A stretch of 64,000 bases of DNA, from positions 238,123 to 302,122 of the forward strand of contig NZ_BMJM01000001.1 of the NCBI RefSeq assembly GCF_014643455.1, in the 5' to 3' direction. Position 1 is the first letter of the stretch, and the number at the start of each line of letters is the position of its first letter. Position numbers and translations under genes: made by a program. This DNA comes from Sandarakinorhabdus glacialis. Its GTDB lineage: Bacteria > Pseudomonadota > Alphaproteobacteria > Sphingomonadales > Sphingomonadaceae. Shown in pieces: positions 35,302-42,994 of this stretch. Under the pieces are notes generated by a model. It was not told where the DNA came from, ran no database searches, and saw nothing but the letters and a program-made list of their open reading frames with translations.

Positions 35302-35454
35302 ACGGTGCGAGGCGGCGGCTATAGCCGGGGGATTGCGCATCGGCAAGGGCGAGTGTGAAGGTTTTCGGCTTTTGTTGCGGCGGTGCGGCATTGCGGTTGC
35401 CTTGGTGGGCGGGTTCGCGCATCCAAGCGTCTGGCGGATACGGGAAATGCTGCG

Positions 35455-36501
35455 ATGAACGCGACGTTGAATGCTGCTCCGGAAGCTGCCAAAGGAGCGG
35501 CGCCTGTTGGCGTCGTGCTGGTGAACTGGAACCGCTGGGCGGATACGATCGAGGCGCTGGAATCGCTGTTGCGCAGCACGGTGCCGGTGCGCGTGGTGGT
35601 GGTCGACAATGCCTCGGCGGATGGGTCGTTCGAGCGGATTGCGGCCTGGGCCGCGGGGCGTGAGCCGGCGGCGGCAGCGTCGGCGCCGATGGCGCGGTTG
35701 AGCACGCCGGCACTGGCCAAGCCAATTGCGCTGCGACGGATCGCGCCGGATGAGGCCGGGACGGCGGAACTGGGTGCGGAGGACTGGCTGACGCTTGTTG
35801 ATTCCGGCGGTAATCTGGGGTTTGCTGGCGGCAATAATGTCGGGCTGCGGCTACTGCAAACCGATCCGGCGGTCGAGATTTTCTGGCTGCTCAACAATGA
35901 TACGGTGGTCGAGGCGGATACCGCGGCCTTGCTGGGGGCGCGAATGCTGGCCGAGCCGCGGGTCGGCATGTGCGGGACGGTGGTGCGCTATTACTGGCAT
36001 CCGGACCGGGTGCAGGCGCTGAACGGCCACCGGCTGAGCTGGTGGACGGGGACGTCGAAGGGCATAAATCACGGCCTGTCGCCGGAGGTGGCGTTCGATG
36101 CCAGGCAGGTCGCGCGCGAGACCGATTTCGTGCTGGGGGCGTCGCTGGCGGTCAGCCGGGCGTTCCTCGAGACCGTCGGACCGATGGAGGAATCCTATTT
36201 CCTTTATTTCGAGGAGGCCGATTGGGCCGCGCGCAACGCCGGCCGCTTCGGCATCGGTTTTGCGGCGGGCGCGGTGGTGTTCCACAAGGAAGGCGGGTCG
36301 ATCGGATCGTCGGGCGTGCCTGGCGCGCGCAGCGAGATGTCGGACTATTGGCTGGCGCGCTCGCGGCTGGCGTTCATCCGGCGGCACCGGCCGCTGCTAT
36401 GGCCGTGGCACTGGCTGTTCAGCGGGGCGTTGATGGCGCGGCGGCTGGTGCGCGGCCAGCCGGCCAAGGCGAAGTCGATCTGGAAGGCGATGACCGAGTA
36501 G
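35455..36501 (+). CDS. Glycosyltransferase family 2 protein
   Basis: A 348-residue GT-A fold glycosyltransferase. The N-terminal block VGVVLVNWNRWADTIEALES and VVVVDNASADGS bind the nucleotide sugar, FWLLNNDTVV carries the DxD-like metal site (NND), and GPMEESYFLYFEEADW is the conserved block seen in rhamnosyltransferase-like GT2 enzymes. A stretch of about 40 residues (residues 65-105, Ala-rich) is inserted between the first two strands. No sugar biosynthesis or polysaccharide genes are adjacent, so the acceptor is unknown. GGGAAATGCTGCG precedes the ATG. It ends 30 bases before the convergent three-part protein. Confidence 0.85.
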   Translation: MNATLNAAPEAAKGAAPVGVVLVNWNRWADTIEALESLLRSTVPVRVVVVDNASADGSFERIAAWAAGREPAAAASAPMARLSTPALAKPIALRRIAPDEAGTAELGAEDWLTLVDSGGNLGFAGGNNVGLRLLQTDPAVEIFWLLNNDTVVEADTAALLGARMLAEPRVGMCGTVVRYYWHPDRVQALNGHRLSWWTGTSKGINHGLSPEVAFDARQVARETDFVLGASLAVSRAFLETVGPMEESYFLYFEEADWAARNAGRFGIGFAAGAVVFHKEGGSIGSSGVPGARSEMSDYWLARSRLAFIRRHRPLLWPWHWLFSGALMARRLVRGQPAKAKSIWKAMTE

Positions 36502-36531: not shown

Positions 36532-38193
36532 CTAGCTGCCGAGGCGTTGATGGGTGGTATTGAGCTTGGCCATCAGCTTGCCGTCGGAGGCGCGGGACAG
36601 GCTGGTCGATACGGTACGCTTGTCGCCATCCTGGGTAATGGCATGGATGCGGAATATGATCGTGCCGCCTGCGCCGCTGTTCGCGAAGTAATAGGTGTCG
36701 CGGTCGAGCGTCGTGTAATTCTGCCAGTCGCTGGCGCCAAGATGCCGTCGGGCACAGACGTCGTTGATGATCGGATAGGCCGCAAAGTAGAGCAGGCCGA
36801 CGCCGTTGATGTCGTGATAGGGCTGTAGCTCATACTCGGTCTCGAACAGGATGGTTTCCACAGCCCCGTCGCTGCGTTGGGTACGGTAGTCGTCGACGAT
36901 CTCGGGCGCGGCAGCAAGCAGCGGGATTGCAAAATTTTCGGGAATTGCCGGCTGGCCACGGACGAGCGATGTGTTCTGGCCCGGCACTTCGAACTTGGAA
37001 AAGTTCGACATGATTTCGACAATGCCCTGCGCGCGCTGGGTCGCGATACTTGCCGTGCTGAAGAACATTCCCGAACCAAAGCGGGACATGGTCATGTCGA
37101 TGTCGAGCCGATCATTCTCGACAATTGCACTGAGGGGCTGGCCCAGCCGCAGACGGATAGCGGTGAACGTGGCATAGAGTCGGTCACCACGGGCATCGGC
37201 AATATTGCGGGACGAGACGCCGAGCGAGTCCGTGAGGATTTGCCAATGAATGTCGCCCAATTCCTTGAACAGCCAGCTTTCGGAAAGGCCGGCAGCGATC
37301 ATTTGCGGCATGCCGACATCATGGCGGCGCAGGCGACGCGACCCGGTGCGCGGCAGGTCGGCAGTTCGCAAGCCGGGCATGAGGGCCGGGGCAGAGGCGG
37401 CGGAGAGCGCCGGACCAGTGCTGGCCGGCAGTGCCGGGGCGGTGCTGACCGGCAGCGCCGGGGCGGTGCCAGCAGGCAGCATGGCGAGAATGTCGGCGGG
37501 CGTGCTGATCGAGGTCCAGCGATCGTCATCGATTATCGTTCCCAGTGTGGCTTCGATTTCGGCCCTGAGGGTTACCAGGCCAAAACTGTCGAAGCCGACA
37601 CTCGCAAGCGATCTGATCTTGTCTTCGTTTTTTAGCGCAAGCAACTGGTCGAGGCTGTTTGCCCGCGCGGCGCTCGGAACACTACGCTCACCAAGTGGCA
37701 GGGCGCGGGTCGTCGCAATGCCGGACGTCGTTGAAGCCCCGCTATTCGCGCGATCGAGGAAATGCACGGCGCGAATGCCCCATTTGCCGGTGCGAATATT
37801 GCGCTCGACGGCCCGGGCCGGATTGCCCGACATCAGCGAGCCCTCAGGTACGTCCGCCACCACAACGCTTCCCGCGCCGATGATGCAATGATTGCCGATC
37901 GTCACACCCGGCAGGATCACCGATCGGGCACCGATCAGGCAGTGCGATCCGATCCGCGTTTCGACATGTTTGTAATTGACGAAATCATGGCTGAGAATTG
38001 CGGCGTCGAACGAGACAGCCGTATAATCACCGATATGGATGCCGCGCGGGTTGGTTGTGTCAAGTCGTGCCGATCGAGCAATACGGACCTCCGTCCCAAT
38101 ATCCATTCCCCAAAACGATCGATAATAGCTACGCAGCAGTCGGGTAGACAGTAAATAAAGTTGTTTTTTTACCGCACTGGCAACTTTTGACAT
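36532..38193 (-). CDS. Three-part protein: hexapeptide acyltransferase, acyl carrier domain, LnmK-like domain
   Basis: A 553-residue protein with three parts. Residues 1-140 are a left-handed beta-helix O-acyltransferase (IGSHCLIGARSVILPGVTIG, GAGSVVVADVPEGSLMSGNP). Residues 178-240 look like an acyl carrier domain, with Ser203 in VGFDSFGLVTL as the likely phosphopantetheine site. Residues 241-272 are a TAPALP-type linker. Residues 295-553 (GMPQMIAAGLSESWLFKELG, ENDRLDIDMTMSRFG) resemble the double hot-dog LnmK/Pnap_2097 family, in which LnmK is an acyltransferase and decarboxylase loading an acyl carrier protein. The DNA is visibly less GC-rich than its neighbours, with A7 near the start, which suggests transfer. 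I infer acyl loading onto its own carrier domain and transfer to a hydroxyl acceptor. Confidence 0.72.
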   Translation of the reverse strand: MSKVASAVKKQLYLLSTRLLRSYYRSFWGMDIGTEVRIARSARLDTTNPRGIHIGDYTAVSFDAAILSHDFVNYKHVETRIGSHCLIGARSVILPGVTIGNHCIIGAGSVVVADVPEGSLMSGNPARAVERNIRTGKWGIRAVHFLDRANSGASTTSGIATTRALPLGERSVPSAARANSLDQLLALKNEDKIRSLASVGFDSFGLVTLRAEIEATLGTIIDDDRWTSISTPADILAMLPAGTAPALPVSTAPALPASTGPALSAASAPALMPGLRTADLPRTGSRRLRRHDVGMPQMIAAGLSESWLFKELGDIHWQILTDSLGVSSRNIADARGDRLYATFTAIRLRLGQPLSAIVENDRLDIDMTMSRFGSGMFFSTASIATQRAQGIVEIMSNFSKFEVPGQNTSLVRGQPAIPENFAIPLLAAAPEIVDDYRTQRSDGAVETILFETEYELQPYHDINGVGLLYFAAYPIINDVCARRHLGASDWQNYTTLDRDTYYFANSGAGGTIIFRIHAITQDGDKRTVSTSLSRASDGKLMAKLNTTHQRLGS

Positions 38194-40223: not shown

Positions 40224-42080
40224 ATGCTGCACCTGCAACAACGCGCAACCGGCGCAAGAGGGCCATTCAAGACGATGCAAAGCGATGCGGTGCCCTTGAA
40301 CAGCGGCCAGGCGAGCGCCGGCGAGCCGGTGCTGATCGTGTCGCCGCGCTATGCCGATGAAGTGGCGGCGTCGGTGACCGATACCGGGATGGTGCCGCGG
40401 ATCGAGCGGCGGCCGGACAAGTCGGCGGAGCGGTTCGAAGCGGAGCCAGCGCGGCTGGTGGTGGTCGATGCACGCGGGGCGCTGGCGCAGGGGCTGGCTT
40501 CGGCGCGGGCGCTGGGCGGGCTAGTCGAGGTGCGCCAAGGCGCGATGCTGGTGCTGCTGTCGCGCAGCGACGGGTCGGCGACGGCGGCGGCGCACGATGC
40601 CGGGGCGACCGGCGTACTGGTCAGCCCGTTCGGAGGAGCGGCCTTTCGCAGCGCGTTGCGGCTGGCGGCACGGCATGCCGGACGGCTGGAGAATGCCGTG
40701 GTCGCCGATGGCGACCCGGCTGCGGGCCGGCGCCACGACCAGCTGACCGGATTGGCGACAAGCGACCAGTTGCAGACCTGGATCATGCTGGCGCTGGCGG
40801 CGCCCGATGCGCCGCCGGTCTATGTGTTGGCCGTGGGAGTCGAGCGCTTCGCACAGATCAACGCGGCATATGGCCGGGCGGTGGCGGACCGGGTGTTGAC
40901 CGAGGTGGGTCTGCGCCTGAGCCAGATCGTCGATGCGCGGGACCGGCGGCCATTGGTCGATGCGCGGCTGCTGGCGCGGCTGGCGGCGGCGGAATTCGCG
41001 GTGGCGATGGCGGGTGCCGTGACGCTCGACGATGCGATGCGGTTGGCCAATGCGCTGGCGCAATCGTTCGAAATGCCGTTCGTTATCGACGATCACGTCG
41101 TTCATTTGTCGGCTCGGGTGGGCATCGCCGTCGGCGGTGAAATGGACAAAGCCTTGACAAGCAACGCGGAAACCGTGGCCGGTCACGCGGCGGCGCTGAC
41201 CAGGCGGGCAAGTGCGGCGCTCGCCAGGGCACGTGCCGGGGACGCCGGGGCGATCGAGGTTTTCCAGATCGACCCGGCCGGCGATCCATTGACGCGGATG
41301 GCCGACCTCGAGGCCGATCTCCATCATGCCATTGCTGATGGTCACATCAAGATACTGTTCCAGCCGCAGCTGTCGTTAGTGACGGGGCGGATTACCGGGG
41401 TCGAGGCGCTGGTGCGCTGGGACCATCCGGCTCTCGGGTTGCTGCCGGCGGAGACGCTTCTGGGCACCGCGGCATCGGCGGAACTGGCGATCAAGCTGGG
41501 GCGACATATCCGACTACGGGCAATGAGCCATGCGGTGCGATGGACCAAGTCACTGGAAAAACTGAGACTTTCTCTCAATGTCACGGCCGCCGATCTGGCT
41601 GATCCGGGGTTTTCGGCGGCGCTTGAGGAAGCGATCGCTGAATCGGGGCTGGCGCGGAACCGATTGACGCTCGAAGTCACCGAAGGCGCGTTGATCGACG
41701 ATATGTATGGCGCGGTGCAGCTGTTTTCGGCGCTGCGAGCGAGCGGGGTGCGGATTGCGCTCGATGATTTCGGAACCGGATATTCGTCGCTGGCGTGGAT
41801 GGCGCGGTTGCCGATCGATGTCATCAAGCTCGACCGGAGTTTTACGCTGGGGCTGACGGGATCGCCGCGCGAGCGTGTAGTGGTGGAGACAATGGTGCGT
41901 CTTTCCAAACAGTTGGGGATGAAGGTCGTTGCCGAGGGCGTTGAGGACGAGAGCCAGCTGGAGGGGGCGCGGCTGGCGGGCTGCGACCTGGTACAGGGTT
42001 ACAAGGTGGCGGCGCCGCTGCATGTCGAGGCGCTCGCGGATTTTTGCGAGAACTGGCAAGTGATGGAGATTGCTGGTTGA
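40224..42080 (+). CDS. EAL-domain cyclic di-GMP phosphodiesterase with degenerate GGDEF domain
   Basis: A 618-residue cytoplasmic signalling protein. Residues about 35-150 look like a receiver-like domain without a clear phosphorylated Asp. Residues about 170-355 are a GGDEF domain ([14 protein letters not shown]) whose active motif is AAAEF, so it should be inactive as a cyclase and may bind GTP. Residues about 365-610 are an EAL domain with all key motifs ([43 protein letters not shown]), so c-di-GMP hydrolysis is expected. AAAAGGAGCGT before the ATG is a strong site. Its stop overlaps the TTG start of the next gene. Confidence 0.93.
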
Positions 42081-42994
42081 ACAGCGGCATGGTGGCGGTC
42101 CGGGGTGGCCGTTTTCGAATGGGAGCGGACGACGGATATCCCGAGGAAGCGCCGGCGCATCTGGTCGAAGTCGATGATTTCCTTATCGATTCCTGCGCGG
42201 TGACGAACGCGGAGTTTGCGCGGTTCGTGGCGGCGACGGGGCATGTGACGGTGGCGGAGATGGTGCCTTCGGCGGCGGATTATCCGGGTGCGCTGCCGGA
42301 GACGCTGTTTGCCGGGAGCCTGGTTTTCCAGAAGACCAAGGCGCCGGTGAATACGCGGGACTGGTCGCAGTGGTGGTCGCTAAGGCCCGGGGCGAATTGG
42401 CGAAATCCTTATGGGCCGGGGTCCTCGATCGACGGGCTGGAGGCACATCCGGTGGTCCATGTCGCCTATGCCGATGCGCTGGCCCATGCGGTCTGGGCGG
42501 GCAAGGACCTGCCGACCGAGGCGGAGTTCGAATTCGCGGCGCGGGGCGGCCTGGAAGGGGCGACCTATGCCTGGGGCGAGGTTTTCCGGCCGGACGGGCG
42601 GCATATGGCGAACACCTGGCAGGGCAAATTCCCGTTCAAGAACAGCCTGGAAGACGGTTGGGAGGCGACGGCGCCGGTTGGGTCGTTCCCGGCCAATGGC
42701 TATGGCCTGCACGACATGATCGGCAATGTCTGGGAGTGGACGCAGGACTGGTTCCGGCCGGGTTTCGATGGCGATGCGGGCAAGGCGTGCTGCGTGCCGA
42801 AGAACCCGCGCGGGCCGGTGGCGGGGACGCTGGACCCGTCGGCGCCGATCCCGCAGCGGGTGCTGAAGGGCGGCAGTTTCCTGTGCGCGCCAAGTTACTG
42901 CAAACGCTATCGGCCGGCGGCGCGGCATGCCGAATCGATCGATACCTCGACGTGCCATATCGGCTTTCGGTGCGTCGTCCGGGGGTCGTTCTAG
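42077..42994 (+). CDS. Formylglycine-generating enzyme (SUMF1 family)
   Basis: A 305-residue protein of the FGE-sulfatase fold (MVAVRGGRFRMGADDGYPEE, AVTNAEFARFVAATG, WQGKFPF, GNVWEWTQDWF). The C-terminal KGGSFLCAPSYCKRYRPAAR keeps both copper-binding/catalytic Cys (residues 270 and 275) and the Arg-rich block of true formylglycine-generating enzymes, which convert Cys in CxPxR of sulfatases to formylglycine. Many SUMF1-fold proteins lack these residues, so activity is likely. The TTG at 42077 has GGAG upstream and overlaps the EAL stop (TTGA). No sulfatase is in the window. Confidence 0.88.
   Translation: MNSGMVAVRGGRFRMGADDGYPEEAPAHLVEVDDFLIDSCAVTNAEFARFVAATGHVTVAEMVPSAADYPGALPETLFAGSLVFQKTKAPVNTRDWSQWWSLRPGANWRNPYGPGSSIDGLEAHPVVHVAYADALAHAVWAGKDLPTEAEFEFAARGGLEGATYAWGEVFRPDGRHMANTWQGKFPFKNSLEDGWEATAPVGSFPANGYGLHDMIGNVWEWTQDWFRPGFDGDAGKACCVPKNPRGPVAGTLDPSAPIPQRVLKGGSFLCAPSYCKRYRPAARHAESIDTSTCHIGFRCVVRGSF

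Follow-up and report, generated by a model that had tools for sequence, protein, structure and literature searches.

To our knowledge, the LnmK domain family is known mainly from one polyketide pathway, and LnmK itself is reportedly a separate protein serving a polyketide synthase. Acylation of polysaccharides is usually explained with acetyl-coenzyme A (acetyl-CoA) as the donor. The acetyltransferase part of GlmU, an enzyme acting on sugars, is a hexapeptide beta-helix. According to PMC8666670, the preferred donor of GlmU is acetyl-ACP (ACP, acyl carrier protein) formed by a hot-dog decarboxylase, with an apparent KM of 20 µM compared to 400 µM for acetyl-CoA. Here we describe a gene in which these kinds of parts are joined. 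It lies in the window, i.e. the whole 64,000-nucleotide stretch of Sandarakinorhabdus glacialis DNA analysed (contig NZ_BMJM01000001.1, 238,123 to 302,122), at positions 36532-38193 on the minus strand, where one intact open frame encodes a 553-residue protein of three domains: a hexapeptide acyltransferase, an acyl carrier and an LnmK-type double hot-dog. The best explanation, which we consider fairly likely, is a self-charging acyltransferase for a glycan or a sugar precursor, the chemistry of which we infer.

The window protein scored 183.5 bits against TIGR04098 (LnmK bifunctional acyltransferase/decarboxylase; NCBIfam curated cut-off 100, E 4.6e-54), the match spanning residues 291-544 and positions 2-268 of the 270 in the model, that is, the full domain. 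It also exceeded the curated NCBIfam cut-off for TIGR04099 (Pnap_2097; 147.6 bits, cut-off 125). In Pfam the hexapeptide repeat model PF00132 reached 41.9 bits (cut-off 27), the LnmK_N_HDF model gave 13.7 bits, below its cut-off of 26.5, and PF09500, the family of the Mad malonyl-ACP decarboxylases, had no match in the protein at E 1. An initial annotation, made from the sequence alone, had proposed a three-part frame with Ser203 in the carrier and a C-terminal domain similar to LnmK and Pnap_2097 proteins; the coordinates, the length of 553 residues and Ser203 given there are correct, the family models agree with the three parts, and the frame runs on the minus strand.

An AlphaFold model of the protein, built from 34 aligned sequences, had a mean predicted local distance difference test score (pLDDT) of 83.5 and a predicted template modelling score (pTM) of 0.59, and because of the latter value the placement of the domains relative to one another is not trusted. 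Up to residue ~131 the model has an N-terminal helix and short strands in a beta-helix pattern with high pLDDT, followed by a helix at 143-150 and disorder at 148-171. The carrier region forms a small helical bundle (helices 174-185, 189-193, 203-217, 223-227 and 232-238), in which Ser203 opens the helix 203-217 of the DS motif at a pLDDT of about 72-87. A second disordered stretch (243-279) leads to the hot-dog region at 286-550. When the model was compared with PDB structures using Foldseek, the top seven matches were LnmK entries (E 3.2e-21 to 4.1e-19, template modelling score by target 0.71-0.74). All of the 50 matches listed were hot-dog proteins and none was a beta-helix, the hot-dog part filling the listing, so that the evidence for the first two domains consists of family models and secondary structure rather than a matched fold. 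The initial annotation had staked its reading on residues 178-240 being a carrier domain and on the C-terminal part being a double hot-dog fold; in the model these are carrier-like helices and a hot-dog part matching LnmK, respectively, and neither of the outcomes named as refuting was seen.

We envisage that a phosphopantetheinyl transferase would arm Ser203, as expected for a carrier domain, and that the C-terminal double hot-dog domain would move a malonyl or methylmalonyl group from CoA to the carrier and remove CO2. Judged from the homology to LnmK and the kept residues, the carrier would be left with an acetyl or propionyl group. It may then swing on the two linkers, both predicted to be disordered, to the N-terminal hexapeptide domain, which by its family and context would acylate a sugar at a hydroxyl or amino group. 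What results is probably a cell-surface polysaccharide with acyl decorations. A precedent is the acetyl-ACP of MadA/MadB that serves GlmU as donor. The genome of S. glacialis contains a methylmalonyl-CoA mutase family gene. Comparison of related loci shows that the carrier and LnmK domains, seen as a donor module, have been paired in evolution with varied acyltransferases, either fused or encoded by an adjacent gene; some relatives of the system are carried by phages, where they may play a role like that of serotype-conversion genes.

A scan of one genome per species gave 133 LnmK-domain relatives, of which the best 80, representing 79 distinct loci (designated by L numbers), were compared; the query was built from five proteins, four of them fused and one with two domains, and genes were called by simple scripts, not by an annotation program. 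Hexapeptide, carrier and LnmK domains occurred in a single frame in 16 of the 79 loci, the carrier profile matching in all 16, while 33 of the 79 had carrier and LnmK domains without a hexapeptide part in the frame. A separate hexapeptide gene was adjacent on the same strand in 11 loci (10 by profile, L037 by hand) and convergent in 8, the latter from one clade around Weeksellaceae. The initial annotation had called the fusion an orphan, a description that has to be given up, as the three-part fusion recurs and the survey of LnmK architectures adds the 19 loci in which carrier-LnmK is paired with a separate hexapeptide gene. Uniqueness of the gene was likewise rejected, relatives having been found both in family genomes and in the wider scan.

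The pairing is well above what is seen for other genes. Among the loci neither fused nor of the synthase type described below, a hexapeptide neighbour was present in 19 of 40, compared to 37 of 782 other genes of these same loci (Fisher p 1.3e-13); when the eight convergent loci were counted once, the figures were 12/33 and 37/934 (p 1.2e-8). The rows are related and these p-values are a guide only. All 11 same-strand pairs of hexapeptide and carrier-LnmK genes overlap or are at most 33 bases apart, and in the control 22 of 934 other genes had a hexapeptide neighbour on the same strand within 40 bases. In L032 the overlap of 145 bases is probably due to a start that was set too early. L037 was set as split by hand, the gene caller having missed its hexapeptide open reading frame (21.1 bits, below the Pfam cut-off of 27), which overlaps the start of carrier-LnmK by 4 bases; the control genes were counted without an equal check by hand. 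In L050 the LnmK domain is divided over two frames. Since the fusion recurs and the split versions adjoin, the reading of one protein that loads, decarboxylates and transfers is the best supported. The initial annotation had suggested just this activity for the single chain, and its proposal is strengthened for the fusion, whereas in other relatives, as far as their sequences tell, a fused carrier does not seem to be obligatory.

The hexapeptide parts joined to this module are not of one kind. For the fused ones the best subfamilies were NF058585 and EpsC (window protein, L041), phosphonate-type and Vat (L018, L023), CatB and Vat (L029) and WbbJ (L034), and for separate neighbours NeuD (L098), WbbJ (L040) and EpsC (L038). 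All of these scores are below the curated cut-offs, and the subfamily names thus indicate relatedness, not function. On the LnmK tree, a quick one with Shimodaira-Hasegawa-like approximate likelihood ratio test (SH-aLRT) support only, the fused state requires three changes (at least two when judged by starred branches). The hexapeptide type changed four times among 17 fused rows when two labels of one type were merged (five unmerged, three without L029). As the hexapeptide part comes from several subfamilies, the carrier-LnmK pair looks like a reusable donor module that was combined with different acyltransferases. In single loci other transferase genes were found upstream, a GNAT gene in L054 and, before an LnmK-only gene, an MBOAT gene in L042; the proteins next door in L066 and L028 are GNAT-like by eye and had no Pfam match.

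Several relatives stand among genes of glycan synthesis. In L057 a glycosyltransferase-like stretch (101.9 bits to that of the window) is in one frame with hexapeptide, carrier and LnmK domains, and in its sister L039 a GT2 gene (PF00535), a hexapeptide gene and carrier-LnmK are adjacent. The relative on a Roseobacter litoralis plasmid (L128) is part of an annotated polysaccharide cluster with glycosyltransferases, a nucleotide-sugar dehydrogenase, a sulfotransferase and an SGNH hydrolase. Congeners of S. glacialis have stand-alone hexapeptide genes with 50-61 % identity to the N-terminal part of the window protein. In L100 such a gene is beside LuxC, LuxE, AMP-ligase and SDR genes (Pfam), L103-L105 have LuxC/LuxE/AMP-ligase/SDR-like surroundings judged by eye from the order and look of the reading frames, and in L102 the gene is beside an AMP-ligase gene and a polysaccharide-flippase-like gene. 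An 88-residue frame in L104 is carrier-like by eye and was unmatched by the carrier profile. The congener loci resemble the putative tetronate route, by ligase and carrier, of the Vibrio cholerae O1 antigen, and this suggests that their hexapeptide subfamily uses acyl donors that are activated or bound to a carrier.

The system was also found on two IMG/VR contigs. In L137 hexapeptide, carrier and LnmK domains are fused in one gene according to the profiles, Pfam confirming only the hexapeptide part; on one side is an 882-residue protein without known family, which itself follows genes for an endolysin and a tail collar, and on the other are genes for an integrase and an excisionase-like protein. 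L138 has separate genes for the hexapeptide protein and for carrier-LnmK, with an overlap of 4 bases, in the midst of Mu-like baseplate and tail-fibre genes. Together with a gene for a 266-aa protein they form a cassette (L138:5298-7824) on the strand opposite to the surrounding Mu-like tail genes; a reading of the 266-aa protein as a deacetylase was dropped, since it had no family match. In the phage record collection there were 13 matching records, and the 8 listed matched only over the hexapeptide part. PMC3851460 places the conversion genes of the Shigella serotype-converting phages that it names next to int-attP, and by analogy the phage-borne system could bring about lysogenic surface conversion. 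The polysaccharide context and the two phage-like contigs point to glycan acylation.

A number of observations weigh against this interpretation. The carrier match of the window protein is marginal (PF00550 at residues 194-239, 21.2 bits with a Pfam cut-off of 20.8), and its hot-dog domain has 22-23 % identity to the LnmK structures in the Foldseek alignments. No dedicated polysaccharide cluster was seen by eye around the fusion gene in the window. The frame of L057 starts at the contig end, and Pfam found no glycosyltransferase in this frame, cut by the contig end. The share of fusions among the loci is inflated because the query was mostly fused and the best 80 of the 133 relatives were taken. 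The LnmK domain also has partners other than hexapeptide enzymes, in 35 of the 79 loci. In 23 of the 79, all from Bacteroidota and one clade on the tree, it starts long synthase-like frames of up to 3,671 residues, ended by the locus limits (among them L061, L062, L068, L071, L073, L074, L090, L092 and L096). The synthase type was assigned by frame length and mutual similarity, without a family search, and the domain is here probably a polyketide-synthase loading domain. In 8/79 (L076, L081, L082, L083, L087, L093, L094, L097) carrier-LnmK directly follows a cassette of two DUF488-looking genes, which we take to be of that family without a family search, and a dual-OB gene (PF22557 by a check of L081); in four of these loci stop and start overlap by a single base. 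In 4/79 (L077, L078, L084, L088) a carrier-LnmK or LnmK gene is behind a thioester-reductase-like gene (NAD_binding_4, checked in L078). The dual-OB and reductase labels rest on similarity to one Pfam-checked member each. The remaining other loci were 9 of the 79. Finally, the Roseobacter litoralis plasmid protein (L128:11329-12786) has hexapeptide and LnmK domains fused and no carrier was found in it with the profile, while in alignment A4 the carrier Ser is replaced by Asn in L039; because of these two, a free carrier or CoA may serve in the rhodobacterial branch.

The same two relatives favour the alternative that the LnmK domain decarboxylates the CoA thioester itself and the hexapeptide domain uses acyl-CoA, the carrier being vestigial or structural. 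CoA donors are common for hexapeptide acetyltransferases. We regard this route as unlikely, as 31 of the 32 rows of A4 that include a carrier keep Ser at the column of Ser203, as the carrier-LnmK pair occurs without a hexapeptide part in its frame in the 33 loci counted above, and as LnmK is preceded in L055 and L060 by a small frame that the carrier profile matches (confirmed by Pfam in L060, not in L055). In A4 the hexapeptide domain is present in 16 rows, of which 13 have His at the column of His69, a candidate catalytic residue as in other hexapeptide acetyltransferases; the exceptions, from other subfamilies, are Asp in L034 and L095 and Thr in L029.

With an identity to LnmK as low as given above, either half-reaction could have been lost, and the LnmK domain might transfer without decarboxylating, so that the sugar would receive malonyl or methylmalonyl as an acidic decoration. 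The Asn of the DINGVG loop, kept in every row, makes this quite improbable. His316, Trp317, Asn463, Gly464, Tyr469 and Phe470 are identical in all 80 LnmK rows (the window and the 79 loci), and position 340 is Tyr in 78 of 80. A weak HMMER segment (4.7 bits) places Tyr340 opposite the tyrosine of the LnmK motif YLAF, reportedly the active-site residue Tyr62. The loop DINGVGLLYF of the window protein aligns with DVNGVGLLYF of LnmK. According to PMC8666670, the malonyl-ACP decarboxylase MadB relies on Asn45 in a conserved loop, and LnmK employs an asparagine on a loop resembling that of the malonyl-ACP decarboxylases. In our reading of the alignment the LnmK asparagine would correspond to Asn463, the Asn of DINGVG kept in every row.

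The hot-dog domain could also act as an acyl-ACP thioesterase, clearing or editing what the carrier bears, as the Foldseek rows listed after LnmK were thioesterases, mostly acyl-ACP thioesterases (E 1.0e-14 to 7.1e-12). However, all seven LnmK entries rank first, the last one by more than four orders of magnitude, and the TIGR04098 score is well above its cut-off, which leaves this explanation with very little probability.

The fusion gene has a GC content of 0.60, which bears out the lower GC noted in the initial annotation, compared to 0.648-0.682 for eight nearby genes; its GC at third codon positions (GC3) is 0.70, and 0.60 in the hexapeptide part, compared to 0.78-0.90. Its distribution is patchy: in the family 5 of 298 genomes are above the TIGR04098 cut-off, in the class alignment A1 has matches at E 1e-20 in 3 of 386 genomes, and at E 1e-10 a match is present in 15 of the 24 genomes of the genus. 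The own genome is included each time, and the other 14 of the genus match only over the hexapeptide part. The differing base composition and the patchy distribution suggest horizontal acquisition. That the gene was acquired recently and is decaying without a present role would fit these features as well as the nearest relative (L019/L021), whose LnmK frame is cut short by a stop, and is nevertheless the least probable of the explanations, given that the window frame is intact over its 553 codons with the checked conserved residues present.

The initial annotation had further suggested that the acceptor sugar is made by the nearby glycosyltransferase, and this part is weak. The glycosyltransferase gene was matched in 23 of the 24 genus genomes, own included, while the fusion beyond its hexapeptide part was found only in the own one; being core in the genus, the glycosyltransferase cannot be taken as the partner. 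In the surroundings of this gene in 19 relatives' loci (L109-L127, with flanks of up to about 1.5 kb), only G008 (L122) had a strong hexapeptide neighbour in convergent orientation, and L110, L111 and L119 had weak hexapeptide matches upstream on the same strand. In L035 the corresponding glycosyltransferase gene is separated from the fusion by one gene. As had been noted initially, no natural-product cluster was seen near the fusion gene when the frames of the window were inspected by eye. The window also contains a formylglycine-generating-enzyme-like gene at 42044-42994 (PF03781). The coordinates of the fusion gene, its parts and the glycosyltransferase gene are collected in Table 1.

Table 1 Features of the hexapeptide-carrier-LnmK fusion gene and its neighbour, in window coordinates
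Feature	Position	Strand	Basis
Fusion gene, hexapeptide acyltransferase - carrier - LnmK domain, 553 aa	36532..38193	-	Open frame, family models, AlphaFold model
Left-handed beta-helix (hexapeptide) acyltransferase domain, residues 1-147	37753..38193	-	PF00132, 41.9 bits; secondary structure of the model
His69 (S/T-H-D motif), candidate catalytic His of the acyltransferase	37987..37989	-	Alignment A4
Flexible linker 1, residues 148-171	37681..37752	-	pLDDT <50
Acyl carrier domain, residues 172-240	37474..37680	-	PF00550, 21.2 bits (cut-off 20.8); helices of the model
Ser203, expected phosphopantetheine attachment site	37585..37587	-	Alignment A4
Ala/Pro-rich linker 2 (TAPALP), residues 241-284	37342..37473	-	pLDDT <50 at 243-279
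LnmK-type double hot-dog domain, residues 285-553	36535..37341	-	TIGR04098, 183.5 bits; Foldseek to LnmK, E 3.2e-21
Tyr340, aligned with the YLAF tyrosine of LnmK	37174..37176	-	Weak HMMER segment, 4.7 bits
Asn463 of DINGVGLLYF, candidate decarboxylation residue	36805..36807	-	Aligned with DVNGVGLLYF of LnmK
Neighbouring GT2 glycosyltransferase, convergent with the fusion gene (context only)	35383..36501	+	PF00535, 35.1 bits

If the self-charging reading is true, bacteria would have a second, protein-channelled acyl supply for their glycans, and it would predict which glycans bear propionyl rather than acetyl groups. The LnmK domain family would then have a wider function, and the two phage-like contigs suggest a new kind of surface-conversion gene. 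It is possible, and at this stage a tentative idea, that the window protein belongs to a widespread, phage-mobilised class of self-charging glycan acyltransferases, in which a portable carrier-LnmK module would turn malonyl- or methylmalonyl-CoA into protein-bound acetyl or propionyl for interchangeable hexapeptide (perhaps also GNAT or MBOAT) transferases of the same chain or gene pair, and the surface antigen of the host would be changed without acetyl-CoA. The existence of fused and split versions makes the reading testable with one purified chain.

In a search of the open-access literature, with subscription papers mostly outside it, no paper named both 'LnmK' and 'hexapeptide', and TIGR04098, TIGR04099 and the family names were unmentioned in the open-access papers. 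Wider literature searches gave, among the matches listed, nothing on the hexapeptide-carrier-LnmK layout. The open-access papers with LnmK, decarboxylase and acyl carrier protein dealt, judged by their titles and the opening of their abstracts, with polyketides and other natural products or with the malonyl-ACP decarboxylase. The parts of the window protein are thus of known kinds, and their combination in one chain and the modular spread appear to be undescribed in the open-access literature.

Among the known systems, LnmK, the methylmalonyl-CoA:ACP acyltransferase/decarboxylase of the leinamycin pathway, shares with the window protein the family model, the fold, the loop Asn and, on a weak alignment, the Tyr; in the window protein, this domain shares one chain with a carrier and a hexapeptide acyltransferase. 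The window protein is above the curated cut-off of the Pnap_2097 family, too, but three of five annotated plasmid relatives (L129, L131, L132) are in nitrilase/radical-SAM clusters (Nit6803, MSMEG_0568). No genes of such a cluster were seen by eye beside the window gene, and no family search was made for them. The Pnap_2097 gene of L131, on a Caballeronia plasmid, shares 4 bases with a gene annotated as methylmalonyl-CoA mutase. The tetronate set of V. cholerae is said to include a hexapeptide protein, RfbO. According to PMC12208996 and PMC3441752, an activated and putatively carrier-borne acyl group ends on a surface-polysaccharide sugar in the V. cholerae O1 tetronate route (RfbK carrier, RfbL ligase) as well, but there the donor is made by a ligase and the proteins are separate. 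In MadA/YiiD and MadB, a hot-dog enzyme makes the short acyl-ACP favoured by the sugar acetyltransferase GlmU (PMC8666670); these are single hot-dog proteins of PF09500, fused to GNAT or alone, with a separate ACP, whereas the window protein lacks a PF09500 match and has its own carrier. Phage serotype conversion offers a further parallel, as the O-acetyltransferase gene oac of Sf6 also serves the acylation of a surface glycan and lies next to the phage integration region (PMC3851460). The serotype-modifying O-acetyltransferase of S. flexneri is an integral membrane protein (PMC3467182), whereas inspection by eye showed no obvious membrane segment in the fusion, which would also bring its own donor system.

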